DNA of 12,818 nucleotides, from positions 1 through 12,818 of the forward strand of contig WRIO01000007.1 in NCBI GenBank assembly GCA_009782695.1. The letters run 5' to 3'. Position 1 is the first letter of the stretch; each line of letters begins with the position of its first letter. The stretch comes from Candidatus Cloacimonadota bacterium (GTDB lineage: Bacteria > Cloacimonadota > Cloacimonadia > Cloacimonadales > WRIO01). Position numbers and translations under genes: made by a program. This document shows positions 3,130-12,818 of this stretch, piece by piece. The notes under the pieces were generated by a model. The model was not told the DNA's origin. It saw only the letters and a program-made list of their open reading frames with translations, and searched no databases.

Positions 3130-3303
3130 GAAAAATTTAGCTTCGAGTGATTTCTTTGTAATCATCTTCTATTGTCCTTAACCTCTAAGTCTTGGTCTAA
3201 TATAGGGAAAGTTATTAAAATAGCATACCTAACAAAGGGAGTTTATCATATTCGGTTGATTATTGCTTACTGTTTTCTGAAAATCCTCTTAACTACTATT
3301 ATA

Positions 3304-4464
3304 TCATTTTAACAACATCATTTTTTTGACAGCCGAATACTCCCTCTTTTTCATCACATAAAAATAAATCCCACTGCTTACATTTTGACCAAAGTCATCC
3401 TTGCCATCCCAGGTCACACTTTGCTTCCCTTGTTTTAAGTTTTGCGACAGCAGTTCACGCACTTTTTGACCACGAACATTATATATCAAGATGGTCACAA
3501 CGCTATCATTTTTAAGTCCGAACCTAATGTTAGTAGATGGATTAAAAGGGTTTGGATAGTTGTCATATAGCTCTGTTTTAGTGATAGAGACCAGGTCCTC
3601 CTCATCTGTGGTGTGAGGGGTGGCAGACACAGTATTCGAAGCAGGTGACTCTCCGTTTCCGTATACAGCAGTGACATAATATTCATAGGTAATATCATTT
3701 GTGACAGCGCTATCTGTAAAAGACAGTTCAGCTAAAGGTAGTGATAATGCAGTAAAGAGCTCATTGTCTCGGTAGATGATATACCCTGTGAGATGATTTA
3801 TATTTTCTGCACCTGCTTCCCAAGATAAAAGGACAAAGGCATCTCCCTCTACTGCTACAAGGTTCTGGGCAGGAAAGAGCTGATAAAGTTCAGCTACTAA
3901 TTCAGCGGCCTCAGACACGCCATTTTCATAAACTGCAAATAAAAAATATGTGTGCTGCCCAAAAGGTAGTTCATTTTCTGAGAAGGTTAAGACATTTGCA
4001 GGTGTTTCTATCAAGACCACAGCATCTCGCGACAGTGTGTATCCCATCAAATGTAAGGGATTTATGTCAATAGGTGCTTCCCAAGTCAGTAAAACATCAT
4101 GCTCATTTTCGACTGATAAGGAGAAATTTGAAGGGACAACCAGAAAATATATTTCTAAAGAGACAGAAACTGCCGGTGACACACCGTTTGCATATTCTGC
4201 TACCACAGTGTAAGTATGCTGTCCGATAGGCACGTCAGCATAGTGAAAATACGGTGATGAAGGTTCCGGATTGGGGGACAGCAATACTTCCCCTCGATAA
4301 ACTAAATATTGCACTAAATATTCACTTTCCACCTCGTCCCATTCCAGTAGCGCATTGTAGCCGTTTGAGATAGCCGCAGAAAGGTTTGCGATGGGTAAAA
4401 GCTCATAAATAGAGACAGTATATATCGCAGGTTCAGACACTCCATATAGCTTAGACTTTGGCAA
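3304..4464 (-). CDS. FN3-repeat surface protein with T9SS C-terminal sorting domain; 3' part of a broken gene
   Basis: This reading frame encodes 386 residues if begun at a weak TTG (4464). It has three fibronectin type III-like repeats at about 26-106, 109-194 and 197-283. Each ends with a similar strand (EYANGVSP, VYENGVSE, VYGNGESP). A C-terminal domain at about 293-386 carries YPNPFNPST (303-311) and ends in a Lys-rich KKMMLLK tail. That is the FlgD-Ig/type A sorting domain that directs export through the type IX secretion system and surface attachment. There is no signal peptide. The sequence opens with SKLYGVSEPA, which matches the last strand of a preceding FN3 repeat, so the N-terminal part is missing. 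It overlaps an LRR-coding frame at 4314-4952 in another frame. The most likely reading is that both are pieces of one large adhesin-like gene damaged by an internal deletion or frameshift. Confidence 0.85.
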   Translation of the reverse strand: MPKSKLYGVSEPAIYTVSIYELLPIANLSAAISNGYNALLEWDEVESEYLVQYLVYRGEVLLSPNPEPSSPYFHYADVPIGQHTYTVVAEYANGVSPAVSVSLEIYFLVVPSNFSLSVENEHDVLLTWEAPIDINPLHLMGYTLSRDAVVLIETPANVLTFSENELPFGQHTYFLFAVYENGVSEAAELVAELYQLFPAQNLVAVEGDAFVLLSWEAGAENINHLTGYIIYRDNELFTALSLPLAELSFTDSAVTNDITYEYYVTAVYGNGESPASNTVSATPHTTDEEDLVSITKTELYDNYPNPFNPSTNIRFGLKNDSVVTILIYNVRGQKVRELLSQNLKQGKQSVTWDGKDDFGQNVSSGIYFYVMKKREYSAVKKMMLLK

Positions 4465-6839: not shown

Positions 6840-8392
<1,553 letters not shown>

Positions 8393-8628: not shown

Positions 8629-8865
8629 ATGAATGATGAAAGAAATGATGTAGTCGAAAACATTAGCTCTACTGATACTGTAAATATCACACCAGAACCT
8701 GTTGTAAAAAAGGAAGTTCCTTTGCCTCCCGGTTCTGAAATAGACACAGTGGAGAAATTAGTCGAAGCCCTGCTCGAAGCCGATAAACAGATTGATGAGG
8801 GCGAATACTACACTTGGGAAGAAGTAAAAGCCCATTTAACGAAAAAGCATGGGATTAAGTGGTGA
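8629..8865 (+). CDS. Putative type II antitoxin, partner of the downstream RelE/ParE toxin
   Basis: A small acidic protein of 78 aa, started at ATG 8629 with AAAGGAG (8616-8622) 6 nt upstream. Residues 1-36 are low-complexity, rich in Asn, Glu, Pro and Val, and appear disordered. Residues about 38-74 form two helices ending in IDEGEYYTWEEVKAHL. This resembles the 'xxEGxYxxxEEVxxxL' tail found in antitoxins of RelE/ParE-type pairs, which wraps the toxin. No ribbon-helix-helix, HTH or AbrB fold is visible, so it may lack the usual DNA-binding autorepressor part. Its stop codon overlaps the toxin start (GTGA at 8862-8865). The assignment rests mainly on this overlap and the neighbour, with weaker support from the C-terminal pattern. 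Its position inside the rRNA spacer implies co-transcription with rRNA. Confidence 0.7.
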   Translation: MNDERNDVVENISSTDTVNITPEPVVKKEVPLPPGSEIDTVEKLVEALLEADKQIDEGEYYTWEEVKAHLTKKHGIKW

Positions 8866-9197
8866 ATATACTCGAATCCTCAAAGCAAGCCCGCGCCGAT
8901 ATAGATTCTTGTTACAGTTATATAAAAGATAACTTACAAGAGCCTTATGTTGCATTAGATTTACTGCTCTCCATCGATAAAAAAGTAAAACAATTAGTTT
9001 TTCTACCAGAAGCTTGGCCACTAGTAAACAATGATTTCCTAGCATCGAAAGGGTATCGTGCTGTCACTGTAAAGAGATATACTCTTTTTTACAGGTTTGA
9101 AGCAGAAAGCAGCGTCATTAGATTACTACGATTTCTGCCTGGTAGAATGAACTGGGCAAGAATCTTGTTAAAAGATTTTGAAGAAGAAGAGGGGTAA
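8859..9197 (+). CDS. RelE/ParE-family toxin
   Basis: The 112-aa product matches the RelE/ParE superfamily throughout. Helix 1 is ARADIDSCYSYIKDNLQEP. It is followed by a helix with LLLSIDKKVKQLVFLPEAWP, then GYRAVTVKRYTLFYRF and VIRLLRFLPGRMNWARIL, which are the strands and C-terminal motif that carry the Arg residues of this fold. The family includes ribosome-dependent mRNA nucleases (RelE) and gyrase poisons (ParE). The sequence resembles the ParE/plasmid-stabilisation branch, but the target cannot be told from motifs. The start is GTG, either 8859 or 8862. The latter gives a 4-nt GTGA overlap with the antitoxin stop and is attractive for translational coupling. It lies in the 16S-23S spacer, on the rRNA strand, 187 nt before 23S. 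It looks intact. Confidence 0.85.
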   Translation: MVNILESSKQARADIDSCYSYIKDNLQEPYVALDLLLSIDKKVKQLVFLPEAWPLVNNDFLASKGYRAVTVKRYTLFYRFEAESSVIRLLRFLPGRMNWARILLKDFEEEEG

Positions 9198-9846
9198 GAT
9201 AGCAATTATCCCAAACACAAAATAAATATGTCTTTAAGAAATAGCTTTTACAAAAAAGTTATTAAAAAATAGAAACAGTTCTAAACAACAGAATATAGAG
9301 TGAAACAGAGTATAGAGGTTAAACTTTTTACTAGGGGAAGGTAGAGATATCTTCTTGAGAGTAAAGAGTTTAAAAATATTAAATAGAAAAAGTACAAATG
9401 GCACACGGTGGATGCCTTGGCACAAAATGGCGAAGAAGGACGTGGTTAACTGCGATAAGCTACGGGGAGCTGTAAGCGAGCTTTGATCCGTAGATTTCCG
9501 AATGGGGCAACCCGGCGAGAGTTATGTCTCGTCATCTCCGCAAGGAGAAGCGAACGCGATGAACTGAAACATCTTAGTAGTCGCAGGAAGAGAAAATAAA
9601 ATATGATTCCCTCAGTAGTGGTGAGCGAACGGGGAATAGCCTAAACCGTCAGCAATGGCGGGGTCGTGGGGCGGCGATATACGATTTTAAAAATATAGAC
9701 GAACATATCTGGAAAGGTAGTCCGTAGAGGGTGATAGACCCGTAGTCGAAATGTTTTTAGAAGGTTAGCCTAACCCCGAGTAGGGCGGGACACGAGAAAT
9801 CCTGCTTGAATCTGGGAGGACCATCTCCTAAGGCTAAATACATTTT

Positions 9847-9888
<42 letters not shown>

Positions 9889-9944
9889 CACCTCGAATGA
9901 GGAGTGAAATAGTACCTGAAACCGTGTGTCTGCAAGCAGTCAGA

Positions 9945-10001
9945 GCACGATATTTTTCTGAAGAAAAATATCGAATGTGTTTGACTTCGTCAAAATGTGT
10001 G
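9945..10001 (+). repeat. Left terminal inverted repeat of the H25 intervening sequence
   Basis: This arm pairs imperfectly with 10395-10455 over its whole length. By itself it folds into an 11-bp perfect hairpin with TGAA loop (9948-9958 with 9963-9973) and a 6-bp hairpin TTTGAC/GTCAAA (9980-9985 with 9989-9994). Confidence 0.75.
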
Positions 10002-10452
10002 AAATATGTAAGATGTGTAAAGAGAGGTATGATATGAGTAATGAAGTTTTAGAATTGAGCTTTGAGTATTCTGTGTTATCAGTTAAGTTTGTTAGAGATA
10101 TGAAAAAAACTACTTGTGAGTTTGAACTTATGAGTCAATTTCTGCGTTCTGCTACTTCGGTAGGAGCAAACATAACAGAAGCGCAGTTTCCACAAAGCAA
10201 AGCTGATTTTGTATCGAAAATGTCCATAGCTCGAAAAGAAGCGAATGAGTCAAAATATTGGCTTCGCCTTTTGGTAGCTACAGAAATAGTAGCAAAAGAG
10301 CAAGTGGATGAATTACTACAAAAGATAGAAAGAATACTAAAGCTTTTAAATGCTATCATAATATCTTCTCGCAAATAAAACACATCAACCAAATCACCCA
10401 CATTTAAAAGCGAAGCTTTTGACATATCCGACTTTTTTCAGAAAAAAAGTCG
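9948..10452 (+). other. 23S rRNA helix-25 intervening sequence (IVS) with protein gene
   Basis: This insertion of about 500 nt replaces the loop of helix 25 (E. coli about 536-559), a classic site of IVS elements that are cut out of precursor rRNA without religation. The two ends are long imperfect inverted repeats (9945-10001 against 10395-10455) based on GCACGA/TCGTGC, which would form an RNase III-type stem. Each end can alternatively fold into two local hairpins. A four-helix-bundle protein gene lies between them on the rRNA strand. Cleavage would leave 23S in fragments in the mature ribosome, as known for other IVS elements. Precise cut sites cannot be read from sequence. Confidence 0.88.
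10034..10378 (+). CDS. 23S rRNA-IVS four-helix-bundle protein (S23 family)
   Basis: I start at ATG 10034, because AGAGAGG (10021-10027) lies 6 nt upstream and homology starts here ([10 protein letters not shown]). An upstream ATG at 9977 would add 19 Cys/Lys/Met-rich residues that overlap the IVS stem and is unlikely. The 114-aa product fits the four-helix-bundle family known from 23S IVS elements. It has an aromatic-rich first helix, then [42 protein letters not shown] (key positions R38, S39, G44, N46, E49, K56, F59, E69 and W76), then a last pair of helices. Family members form pentameric rings. Their role is unproven, although RNA binding has been suggested. The gene is inside the IVS, on the rRNA strand, and intact. 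Confidence 0.92.
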
Positions 10453-10455
10453 TGC
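10395..10455 (+). repeat. Right terminal inverted repeat of the H25 intervening sequence
   Basis: This arm is complementary to 9945-10001. Locally it forms a 6-bp hairpin AAAAGC/GCTTTT (10406-10411 with 10415-10420) and a 10-bp hairpin CGACTTTTTT/AAAAAAGTCG (10429-10438 with 10443-10452). The order mirrors that of the left arm. Confidence 0.75.
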
Positions 10456-11068
10456 GATGGCGTGCCTTTTGCATAATGAGCCGGCGAGTTAATTTATACT
10501 GCAAGGTTAAGCAGCATGAGCTGTGTAGCCGAAGCGAAAGCGAGTGTTAATAGCGCGTATAGTCGTATGAATTAGACCCGAAACCAGATGATCTATCCAT
10601 GTCCAGGTTGAAGTTTGGGTAACACCAAATGGAGGACCGCACCGACCGACGTTTCAAAGTCGGCGGATGAGGTGTGGATAGGGGTGAAAGGCCAAACAAA
10701 TCTGGAGATAGCTGGTTCTCTCCGAAAACTATTTAGGTAGTGCCTCATTTTAATTTTACGGAGGTAGAGCACTGAATGGGCTAGGGGCCTTACCGGGTTA
10801 CTGAACCCAAATAAACTCCGAATGCCGTAAAATGATGAATGGGAGACAGGGCGTGTGGGATAAGCTTCACGTCCGAGAGGGTAAGAACCCAGACCGTCAG
10901 CTAAGGTCCCCAAGTATATGCTAAGTGAATAAGGATGTGCTATTGCACAGACAGCCGGTATATTGGCTTAGAAGCAGCCATTATTTAAAGAGTGCGTAAT
11001 AGCTCACCGGTCGAGTGGTGATGCACCGAAGATGAACGGGACTATAAGCATATCACCGAAGCTACGGA

Positions 11069-11160
11069 GTGTACTTTTTTGACTATTGTTAAAAAAATAC
11101 GCAACGATAGAAATATCGTTGTGGTTTATATAATATGGGGTTGGTGCGAGCCAACCCCAT
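11069..11160 (+). repeat. Cluster of three hairpins at the left edge of the H45 insertion
   Basis: Hairpin A pairs GTGTA+T6 (11069-11080) with A6+TACGC (11091-11102), with one C-A mismatch. Hairpin B is a perfect 8-bp stem CAACGATA/TATCGTTG closed by a GAAA tetraloop (11102-11121). Hairpin C is a perfect 10-bp stem ATGGGGTTGG/CCAACCCCAT with a 6-nt loop (11135-11160), followed on this strand by eight A rather than T, so it is not a classic terminator. Hairpin A may be what remains of, or replaces, helix 45. Confidence 0.7.
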
Positions 11161-11208
11161 AAAAAAAACTTTGGAGATAAAGTTGAGTAAAATCATAAGG
11201 AGATAATA

Positions 11209-11565
11209 ATGAAAAAAATAACAACAATAATTGTATTAATGCTAACAGCATTTTGTTTATCTGCTGAAAGTTTTGTTTTAGATATAGATATGGAAAGTCT
11301 AGATAAAAACAATAGCGAGGTTCTTTTAGATAACATGACTTTGCGTATTAATGTTGAAGCTGATGTTTTACACAATCCGAATGGAGAAGATTATAAAGAA
11401 TTTATTCTTGAATCACCTATAGGAGGATTGAACTTTAAAATATTAGACGAAAAAGACGATCCAAACCCCGAACTAACACAAAAAATAGAAATATTACGAA
11501 AATCAGATTTACCAAAAGCTTTAAGGGATGAACTTATAAAACTTTTAATTCAGAAAAGTAAATAA
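11209..11565 (+). CDS. Small exported protein of unknown function
   Basis: A 118-aa protein with a clear signal peptide (MKKITTIIVLMLTAFCLSAES, cleavage probably after SAE or SA, near residue 19-20). AAGGAG (11197-11202) lies 6 nt before the ATG. The mature part starts with a strand-rich region (FVLDIDMESL, NMTLRINVEADVL) and has a helical acidic/Lys C-terminus (LPKALRDELIKLLIQKSK). Its length and composition are those of a small periplasmic protein, and no family is recognised. It stands alone between the hairpin cluster and a terminator-like hairpin at 11581-11613, and reads in the rRNA direction. Confidence 0.75.
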   Translation: MKKITTIIVLMLTAFCLSAESFVLDIDMESLDKNNSEVLLDNMTLRINVEADVLHNPNGEDYKEFILESPIGGLNFKILDEKDDPNPELTQKIEILRKSDLPKALRDELIKLLIQKSK

Positions 11566-11580
11566 ACAATAATTATTAAT

Positions 11581-11613
11581 AAGTCAACATCCGATTCTTC
11601 CGGATGTTGACTT
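11581..11613. terminator. Strong hairpin after the exported-protein gene
   Basis: A perfect 13-bp stem AAGTCAACATCCG/CGGATGTTGACTT (11581-11593 with 11601-11613) with a 7-nt loop lies 15 nt after the stop codon. Only a short T-run follows (TTTG), so it may stop transcription from either side or stabilise the mRNA end. Confidence 0.6.
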
Positions 11614-11868
11614 TGATAATATAAGATTAGCTATACTAAAAAGGAGATTTATTTATCTTAATCCTTTCCATGACCAAATTAAAATAGCAATAAACTAAAA
11701 ATAAATAGAGTATACATATCTATTTAAAGAGTTGTCATACATTGAAGTAGATTAGATTTAGAAAATATTTGACTTATATTAAAGAAAAGTTGTCTTTATA
11801 CAACTTTTTTATATCATTAGTTAGATTTTCTTAATATAAATCATTAACATCTAAAGGAGATTGTAAAA
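11614..11868 (+). other. Gene-free AT-rich interval with a second hairpin
   Basis: No coding frame is supported here. AAAAGTTGT/ACAACTTTT (11785-11793 with 11800-11808) is a 9-bp stem with 6-nt loop ending in six T residues. It is a rho-independent terminator shape placed 61 nt upstream of the next start codon, so it could also act as an attenuator. The ribosome site AAAGGAGA for the next gene is at 11853-11860. Confidence 0.45.
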
Positions 11869-12372
11869 ATGAAAAAGAGCATAGAAAAAGAAAAAACTGA
11901 TAATCAAAGATTGGAAACACCTACACCAAATGGTTTGATATCACCAGAGCCTCGTATTTCTTCGTCTGTACTTGAAGAGATGATGGAACAATTAGAAGTC
12001 ATGATTGATAAGTTTATGGGTAGTGCAGATATAAATGCTGCAATGACTGGTAAAGAAAGAATGCGACTTTTTGGTGTAAAGTCTAGAAAATATGGTTTTA
12101 TAACAAAAGCTTGGGATATCGCAAAGGGAAATCCAACATTTTTACCTCCAAATTTTGATATCAAAACTATGGAAGAGCATATAAGAATCTTCGAGGAAGT
12201 AAGGCAACTTACATTATTACTCGAACAATTTCAACATATAGCGACCGATTATTTAATGCTTACTAGCGATAATGCTTATAGAGACGCTTTACGAGTTTAT
12301 GGTAGCCTTAGGGAACAAAATAAAAGTAGGGTTCCAGGGGCAAATGCACTTTTCAAAGAGCTTTTACAATAA
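11869..12372 (+). CDS. Conserved hypothetical protein resembling an uncharacterised Bacteroidetes family
   Basis: A 167-aa protein, no signal peptide, with AAAGGAGA 8 nt before the ATG. The first 35 residues are polar and appear flexible. The rest is helical. The middle and end (residues about 58-165) follow a pattern I recall from small unannotated Bacteroidetes proteins: an ERxxL...GxKxxxFxxKAxxxAKxNPxxxPP segment, then a Leu-rich helix, then 'DxLMLxxSxAYxxALxxYxSxxxxxKxxVPGAxxxxxxL'. Here these read KERMRLFGV, AKGNPTFLPPNFD, DYLMLTSDNAYRDALRVYGS and SRVPGANALFKEL. No enzymatic motif is evident and the function is unknown. It lies alone in the H45 insertion with its own spacing, so it is probably a single-gene unit. 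Confidence 0.8.
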   Translation: MKKSIEKEKTDNQRLETPTPNGLISPEPRISSSVLEEMMEQLEVMIDKFMGSADINAAMTGKERMRLFGVKSRKYGFITKAWDIAKGNPTFLPPNFDIKTMEEHIRIFEEVRQLTLLLEQFQHIATDYLMLTSDNAYRDALRVYGSLREQNKSRVPGANALFKELLQ

Positions 12373-12609
12373 AAATAAGATTACTATAAATTAAGTTTAC
12401 GCAACTACTCCAATAATATTAAGTATTCTATTCTATCAATGATAAGAATAAAATAGTTTATATTGGACGAGTGTTGAACAGTCACTGTGTGTAACATTTT
12501 TTATAAGTCATTTTAAGTTAAATTTAGTATTTTATTGTAGAAAAGATTTAGTAACAGTCTTTTCTATAAAAGAATAATAAAAAATATCATATAAATAAGG
12601 GAAATAAAA
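12373..12609 (+). other. AT-rich intergenic interval with hairpin
   Basis: No gene is visible. A 9-bp perfect stem TAGAAAAGA/TCTTTTCTA (12538-12546 with 12558-12566) lies 44 nt before the next start codon. A weak promoter-like pair TTGAAC ... TAACAT (about 12474-12498) precedes it. Confidence 0.35.
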
Positions 12610-12818
12610 ATGAAAAAAATAACAACTTCAATAAAAACTTTTACAACTATATGTAATATATTAACAATCAGCCTTTTTTCAATAGTATTTTTCGAGATTG
12701 TCTTATTAAAAAAGTCAAGTAGCATATCAAACTTACTGTTACCAATTTGCATATTAAGTTCCTTGATAGGCATAGTAGTCCGTAAGTTATATTTAAAGAA
12801 AGTTATTGCAAATGAGGT
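12610..12818 (+). CDS. Small two-TM membrane protein, C-terminus cut by window edge
   Basis: ATG at 12610 with a modest AAGGGA 7 nt upstream opens a frame without stop to the window end (69 full codons). The sequence starts with a basic MKKITTSIKTF. It has two hydrophobic stretches at about residues 13-33 (ICNILTISLFSIVFFEIVLL) and 42-57 (LLLPICILSSLIGIVV), joined by a short KKSSS loop and followed by a basic RKLYLKK. This predicts a small inner membrane protein with both ends inside. No family is recognised and the true length is unknown. A hydrophobic minus-strand frame in the same place is its shadow. Confidence 0.55.
   Translation, partial: MKKITTSIKTFTTICNILTISLFSIVFFEIVLLKKSSSISNLLLPICILSSLIGIVVRKLYLKKVIANE

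Follow-up and report, generated by a model that had tools for sequence, protein, structure and literature searches.

A large insert with several open reading frames in a Cloacimonadota 23S rRNA gene is probably a helix 45 intervening sequence

The 23S ribosomal RNA (rRNA) gene of a Candidatus Cloacimonadota bacterium appears to be interrupted at a helix tip by AT-rich DNA that carries open reading frames (ORFs). The window, by which we mean the whole stretch of DNA analysed, is an entire contig (C7) of 12,818 nucleotides (nt) from G000, a metagenome-assembled genome (MAG) of 309 contigs and 1.56 Mb that is 64% complete. We conclude, with a probability of roughly 0.7, that the insert is an intervening sequence (IVS) of more than 1.75 kilobases (kb) that replaces the tip of 23S helix 45, rather than a chimera made at the junction. 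We favour this reading because a relative, G003, has a closed IVS at helix 45 that opens with a homologous 155-nt leader and beyond which the 23S and 5S genes continue. We also count in its favour that the 23S gene of the window already holds an IVS with paired ends at helix 25. IVSs are transcribed as part of the precursor rRNA (pre-rRNA) and removed with no ligation of the ends, RNase III being the enzyme responsible where this has been tested, and the 23S rRNA then works in pieces (PMC4990558).

The last normal 23S sequence in the window is CACCGAAGCTACGG at 11054-11067, and the DNA departs from 23S at 11068, where an insert with three ORFs on the rRNA strand takes over. The insertion site aligns with a short helix tip in 12 other operons of the phylum, IVSs typically replacing the tip of helix 9, 25 or 45, and we take this tip to be helix 45 in the E. 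coli 23S numbering. The assignment is consistent with the sites in PMC4990558. A preliminary description of this DNA had placed a break at helix 45, followed by AT-rich DNA with three same-strand genes, and both points agree with our results, ORF3 being weaker as a gene than the other two. The full-model match of Rfam RF02541 extends to 11264; we dismissed this as a forced model end, because the sequence after 11067 aligns instead with the leader of the G003 IVS. The visible insert has the following features.

11068..12818, + strand: visible part of the helix 45 insert, 1,751 nt, GC 27.6%, running to the contig end.
11068..11208, + strand: leader of the insert, with the presumed 5' arm of a closing stem, hairpins at about 11100-11123 and about 11134-11161, and a Shine-Dalgarno sequence; collinear with the G003 leader.
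11209-11565, + strand: ORF1, 118 amino acids (aa), with an N-terminus that by eye resembles a signal peptide; searches gave no relative.
11869-12372, + strand: ORF2, 167 aa, helical in the structure model, a C-terminally short member of an uncharacterised family.
12610 to 12818 (contig end), + strand: ORF3, 69 aa in view and open, membrane-like by eye, weak coding signal.

G003 belongs to the same family as G000 and to a different genus, and its 23S is 97% identical to that of the window over 10560-11068 (495 of 509 positions). On G003 contig C45, the helix 45 tip is replaced by 758 nt (locus L007, 704-1461), the ends of which pair over about 45 base pairs (bp) in a predicted fold. After this insert the 23S sequence resumes and continues as far as its 3' terminus at 3153, and the 5S gene occupies 3206-3322. 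The G003 insert is a closed, paired-end IVS within a 23S-5S stretch that looks intact, and its cargo is a single lipoprotein-like ORF of 159 aa (842-1318; lipobox seen by eye). The leader of the G003 insert and the initial 155 nt of the window insert can be aligned over their full length, through the arm, hairpin, A-run, Shine-Dalgarno sequence and ATGAAAAAAATAA, and the first ORF begins at nearly the same offset (141 nt in the window, 138 nt in G003) with a similar ribosome-binding site and start. Among 3,784 background segments taken from G003 DNA (mean -7, maximum 37), none attained the alignment score of 58, and none of 3,821 scored as high when the comparison was made at 100 nt. For the arm alone, nothing in two backgrounds was as good at 40 nt (0 of 11,581 and 0 of 4,880), and at 60 nt 2 of 2,000 shuffles were.

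Past the leader, DNA matches between the two inserts are short only, the best (26 nt, E 0.006) being the common ORF start at the same offset, and a BLASTP comparison of the G003 IVS protein with ORF1-3 gave no similarity even at E values as high as 5. Since the leader is homologous and the cargo unrelated, the start of the insert has been conserved while the cargo differs. Relatives of the G003 cargo protein consist of one identical protein on a 1,045-nt contig and a degenerate 46-residue match, with stops, in its own genome (G003:C82). Its weak family matches to NCBIfam TIGR04313 (E 0.0044, far below the cut-off) and phrog_806 (E 0.0031) were not accepted as homology.

Large helix 45 inserts are distributed sporadically in the phylum. 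Among 124 genomes searched, 13, including G000 and G003, matched a query from the 5' side of 23S, and 2 of these 13, both from one family, have a large insert at helix 45. In the 12 operons of the 11 other matching genomes the tip measures 10-51 nt. These lengths come from a pattern search that measured all 12 loci outside the family; a tighter earlier pattern hit 6 of 15 loci, 2 of the 15 stopping short of helix 45. Three genomes that matched only a 3' side query (G019, G038 and G093) were excluded from the count. The other two family members (G001 and G002) gave no 23S match, so that the family count refers to two members with readable 23S.

Of the three ORFs in the insert, all on the rRNA strand, at least two are likely genes. 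Each of the three is preceded by a Shine-Dalgarno-like leader, as judged by eye, and ORF1 and ORF2 show a peak of GC at the first codon position, as do three chromosomal ORFs compared with them. ORF1 retrieved itself alone at E 0.1 when 5.8 billion proteins were searched through a word filter, which passed 3 candidates. Apart from itself, ORF2 retrieved 28 relatives, of which 21 have lengths of 230-292 aa. When 23 of the 28 were aligned (P0017, P0019, P0023, P0028 and P0029 were omitted), ORF2 ended cleanly ahead of a C-terminal part present in the 23 aligned relatives, and no remnant of this part was detected after the ORF2 stop. The truncation could mean either that ORF2 is decaying or that it is a reduced but functional version. 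Its structure model is all-helical (predicted local distance difference test, pLDDT, 81; predicted template modelling score, pTM, 0.59), and comparison of the model with the PDB gave no significant match (best E 2.9).

Within the phylum, ORF2 gave one weak match (G031, E 3.6e-4 over 58 residues). Members of the ORF2 family occur in Treponema, Chitinispirillales and Planctomycetaceae MAGs, and a viral scan that followed up the relatives found none among 16 stretches. PADLOC at E 0.01 returned nothing for the insert ORFs, and the insert had no match among 72,556 plasmid records, in which the 16S gene matched best at about 77%. Short BLAST matches of the insert occur in 32 other genomes; besides the insert itself, 45 were listed, of which 42 fall at insert positions 103-215, 791-848 or 1463-1565, intervals that surround the three ORF starts, and none was counted as insert homology. 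Imperfect 14-nt inverted repeats at 11770-11783 and 12497-12510 flank ORF2 and loosely resemble the IVS arm. They could possibly mark a nested IVS or other element, or reflect chance, being short enough to arise by chance in AT-rich DNA.

Several observations weigh against our interpretation of the insert as a helix 45 IVS with working cargo. The contig stops within the insert, and neither the 3' arm nor a return to 23S, both of which would lie past the contig end, is seen in G000. The closest complement of the 5' arm inside the window reaches a score of 19, where shuffles average 21 (the same test on G003 gave 54), and searches of the bin with a covariance model (12 of 18 candidates scored), a conserved motif and BLAST with the G003 3' half turned up no other piece of 23S. 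The total size and gene count given here are therefore lower limits. The comparison rests on one close relative, and at some lengths the arm is matched by background segments (11 of 11,613 and 6 of 4,928 at 24 nt; 2 of 11,601 and 3 of 4,910 at 30 nt; 14 of 11,561 and 0 of 4,850 at 50 nt). Folded alone, the 5' arm region of the window can also make a small local hairpin. Promoter-like sites are about as numerous as chance would give (11 against 10.7 expected), and terminator-like sites slightly exceed expectation (2 against 0.5), both being the two strands of the single hairpin at 11100-11123. ORF3, with GC of 0.19/0.30/0.26 at its three codon positions, lacks the first-position peak and gives no clear coding signal. 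Because ORF2 is without the C-terminal part of its family, the cargo may be decaying. The abstract of PMC4990558 states that its results suggest that S23p, the IVS-encoded protein of Coxiella, is not synthesized in vivo, which together with the shortening of ORF2 argues against use of the cargo.

The preliminary description had proposed a large multi-gene IVS at helix 45 and had named an assembly chimera at 11060-11110, a truncated pseudogene and a mobile element as alternatives. Its proposal gains from the closed G003 IVS with the homologous leader; what it had suggested looking for, a 3' arm and resumed 23S, would fall beyond the contig end, and a rearrangement deeper in the insert is possible. 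A chimera at 11060-11110 is unlikely, because homology with G003 crosses the junction and reaches the start of ORF1. A fusion further in would leave the start of the IVS genuine: assembly or a later event could have joined the leader and ORF1 to unrelated DNA with ORF2 and ORF3, the true IVS being nearer the size of that in G003. This would suit a contig that ends inside the insert and a common leader that stops near the ORF1 start. It would also suit the two ORF2 relatives with context (L021 and L022, in Treponema and Chitinispirillales MAGs), which are free-standing genes in other phyla with no Rfam match and no rRNA in the 11.2 and 7.9 kb around them. We nevertheless consider such a fusion unlikely, as the three ORFs all lie on the rRNA strand and are similarly rich in AT, and no second junction was noticed, though no test aimed at one was run. 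Within the phylum, the G003 cargo likewise matched nothing beyond the G003 genome, so that there too an insert of this kind holds cargo free of local relatives.

Our confidence is lower still that this rRNA copy is a truncated pseudogene, in which a rearrangement cut the operon inside the IVS and 23S never resumes. The 23S 3' half was indeed not found in the bin, but its absence says little, because the bin is incomplete and 109 of the 124 phylum genomes, G000 included, had no match to the 3' side query; moreover, the visible 23S is well conserved relative to G003. A transposon or intron inserted into helix 45 seems to us very improbable, although there are precedents for both. In the survey of PMC2672173, 23S inserts above 1 kb were transposons (1,471 nt in Nostoc and 1,067 nt in Deinococcus) and non-transposon IVSs measured 9-112 nt. 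The rRNA genes of candidate phyla radiation (CPR) bacteria hold large intron-like insertions, as described in PMC11270868: those in one 23S gene add up to as much as 5,750 bp, homing endonucleases account for 274 of the 278 ORFs in 23S insertions that have known domains, and insertions of unknown kind that lack an ORF attain 500-1,000 bp. Both groups resemble the window insert in being large and bearing ORFs. However, the Nostoc and Deinococcus inserts encode transposases and have copies elsewhere, and the CPR 23S ORFs with known domains are mostly homing endonucleases, whereas no transposase or homing-nuclease domain was detected in the three visible ORFs, though the unseen 3' part could hold one. 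No intron family reached the Rfam gathering score in the window, a search that covered the visible 1,751 nt of the insert. A search for second copies in the 64%-complete bin, in which 2 of 61 candidates were scored, returned one full copy in G000 and, as the only other hit, a 53-nt stretch around the start of a gene on contig C122, and no second copy was among the scored candidates. The leader, moreover, is common with the paired-end IVS of G003, and the mobile element foreseen earlier has no positive support in the visible part.

If the insert is a helix 45 IVS, it would be transcribed inside the pre-rRNA, and its 5' arm would pair with a 3' arm beyond the contig end. We would expect the insert to end with the complement of 11068-11091 joined to 23S at GGTAGGAGAGC. 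RNase III would cut the closing stem, as in other IVSs, and, because helix 25 also carries an IVS, the 23S rRNA would work as three fragments with lengths of about 562, 608 and 1,692 nt, where the third value was measured in G003. These sizes replace the fragments of about 1.2 and 1.7 kb anticipated in the preliminary description, which ignored the upstream helix 25 IVS. The released RNA may act as cargo mRNA before it decays, and read-through with the rRNA would be the simplest source of transcript for the cargo, if the genes are used. For G000, closure and excision, like any expression of the cargo, are what we infer from this scheme.

The Coxiella burnetii IVS, 428 nt with an S23p ORF (PMC4990558), is alike in lying at the same helix, holding an ORF and replacing the helix loop; the ends of the Coxiella and G003 IVSs form a stem. 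It differs in having one S23p gene, as against three ORFs in more than 1,751 nt, none of them S23p (which lies in helix 25 here), and RNase III cutting was shown for Coxiella and would be presumed for the window. The G003 IVS shares with the window insert its site, the homologous 155-nt leader and the approximate offset of the first ORF; it differs in its 758-nt length, its single ORF unrelated to those of the window, and its closure ahead of 23S and 5S. No multi-gene IVS is described in the titles and abstracts of the literature searched, which lay mostly outside subscription journals. If our interpretation holds, 23S IVSs, which otherwise measure a few hundred nt and contain no more than one small gene, would come to include a multi-gene insert that, as far as seen, is neither intron nor transposon, and a single site would prove to retain its ends through changes of cargo. 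The amount of foreign sequence that a ribosomal RNA is able to bear and shed during maturation would also become apparent, and the insert would offer a test of whether IVS genes are expressed. In practice, inserts of this kind could interrupt assemblies and give the appearance of truncated 23S genes in MAGs.

The rest of the rRNA operon in the window, upstream of the insert, contains the following.

6840..8392, + strand: full-length 16S rRNA gene (Rfam RF00177, 1487 bits, model 1-1533).
8629..9197, + strand: type II toxin-antitoxin-like pair in the 16S-23S spacer, with a 78-aa partner at 8629-8865 and a ParE-family toxin at 8859-9197.
9385..9946, + strand: 23S 5' segment, about 562 nt; start from Rfam RF02541, end set by eye against G003.
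9947..10459, + strand: helix 25 IVS, about 513 nt, with ends paired in a predicted fold and an S23p gene at about 10034-10378.
10460..11067, + strand: 23S middle segment, about 608 nt.

The S23p gene matches Pfam 23S_rRNA_IVP (PF05635) at 1.6e-24 for 9977-10375. Helix 25 was compared between the window and G003 only, and in G003 it is a short loop only. The 16S-23S spacer of the window is about 1.0 kb long and contains no tRNA gene. In the same 12 operons used for the helix 45 lengths, the spacer measures 112-454 nt, with ORFs of 60-83 aa in 4 of the 12. The spacer toxin matches Pfam ParE_toxin at 6.6e-11, and its 78-aa partner had no Pfam match.

A broader and rather doubtful idea is that the rRNA operon of this family could serve as a platform for gene capture, with the 16S-23S spacer, helix 25 and helix 45 as sockets for exchangeable cargo driven by ribosome synthesis. 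As a tentative elaboration, helix 45 at least would have conserved ends, and the cargo, comprising toxin-antitoxin-like pairs, secreted proteins and orphans, would be transcribed at rRNA levels. For the 23S part, it is conceivable, at a similarly low level of confidence, that RNase III frees the cargo as mRNA cut from the pre-rRNA. The idea of an operon with several sockets rests on two genomes. In the second of these, G003, contig C152 (L008, 302-3917) has a 3.6 kb spacer that contains genes for tRNA-Ile and tRNA-Ala together with six same-strand ORFs of at least 84 aa, among them two toxin-antitoxin-like pairs. In one pair the first ORF has a weak Phd/YefM match (below the cut-off) and the second matches ParE, the other pair consists of DUF6364 and PIN, and the remaining two proteins had no Pfam match. 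Contigs C152 and C45 of G003 overlap in 303 nt of 23S with 6 differences, and the probable explanation is that more than one operon or strain is present in G003; judging from this overlap, its spacer and its helix 45 insert may sit in different operon copies. The ParE-like proteins of the window and G003 spacers are 37% identical over 103 residues.

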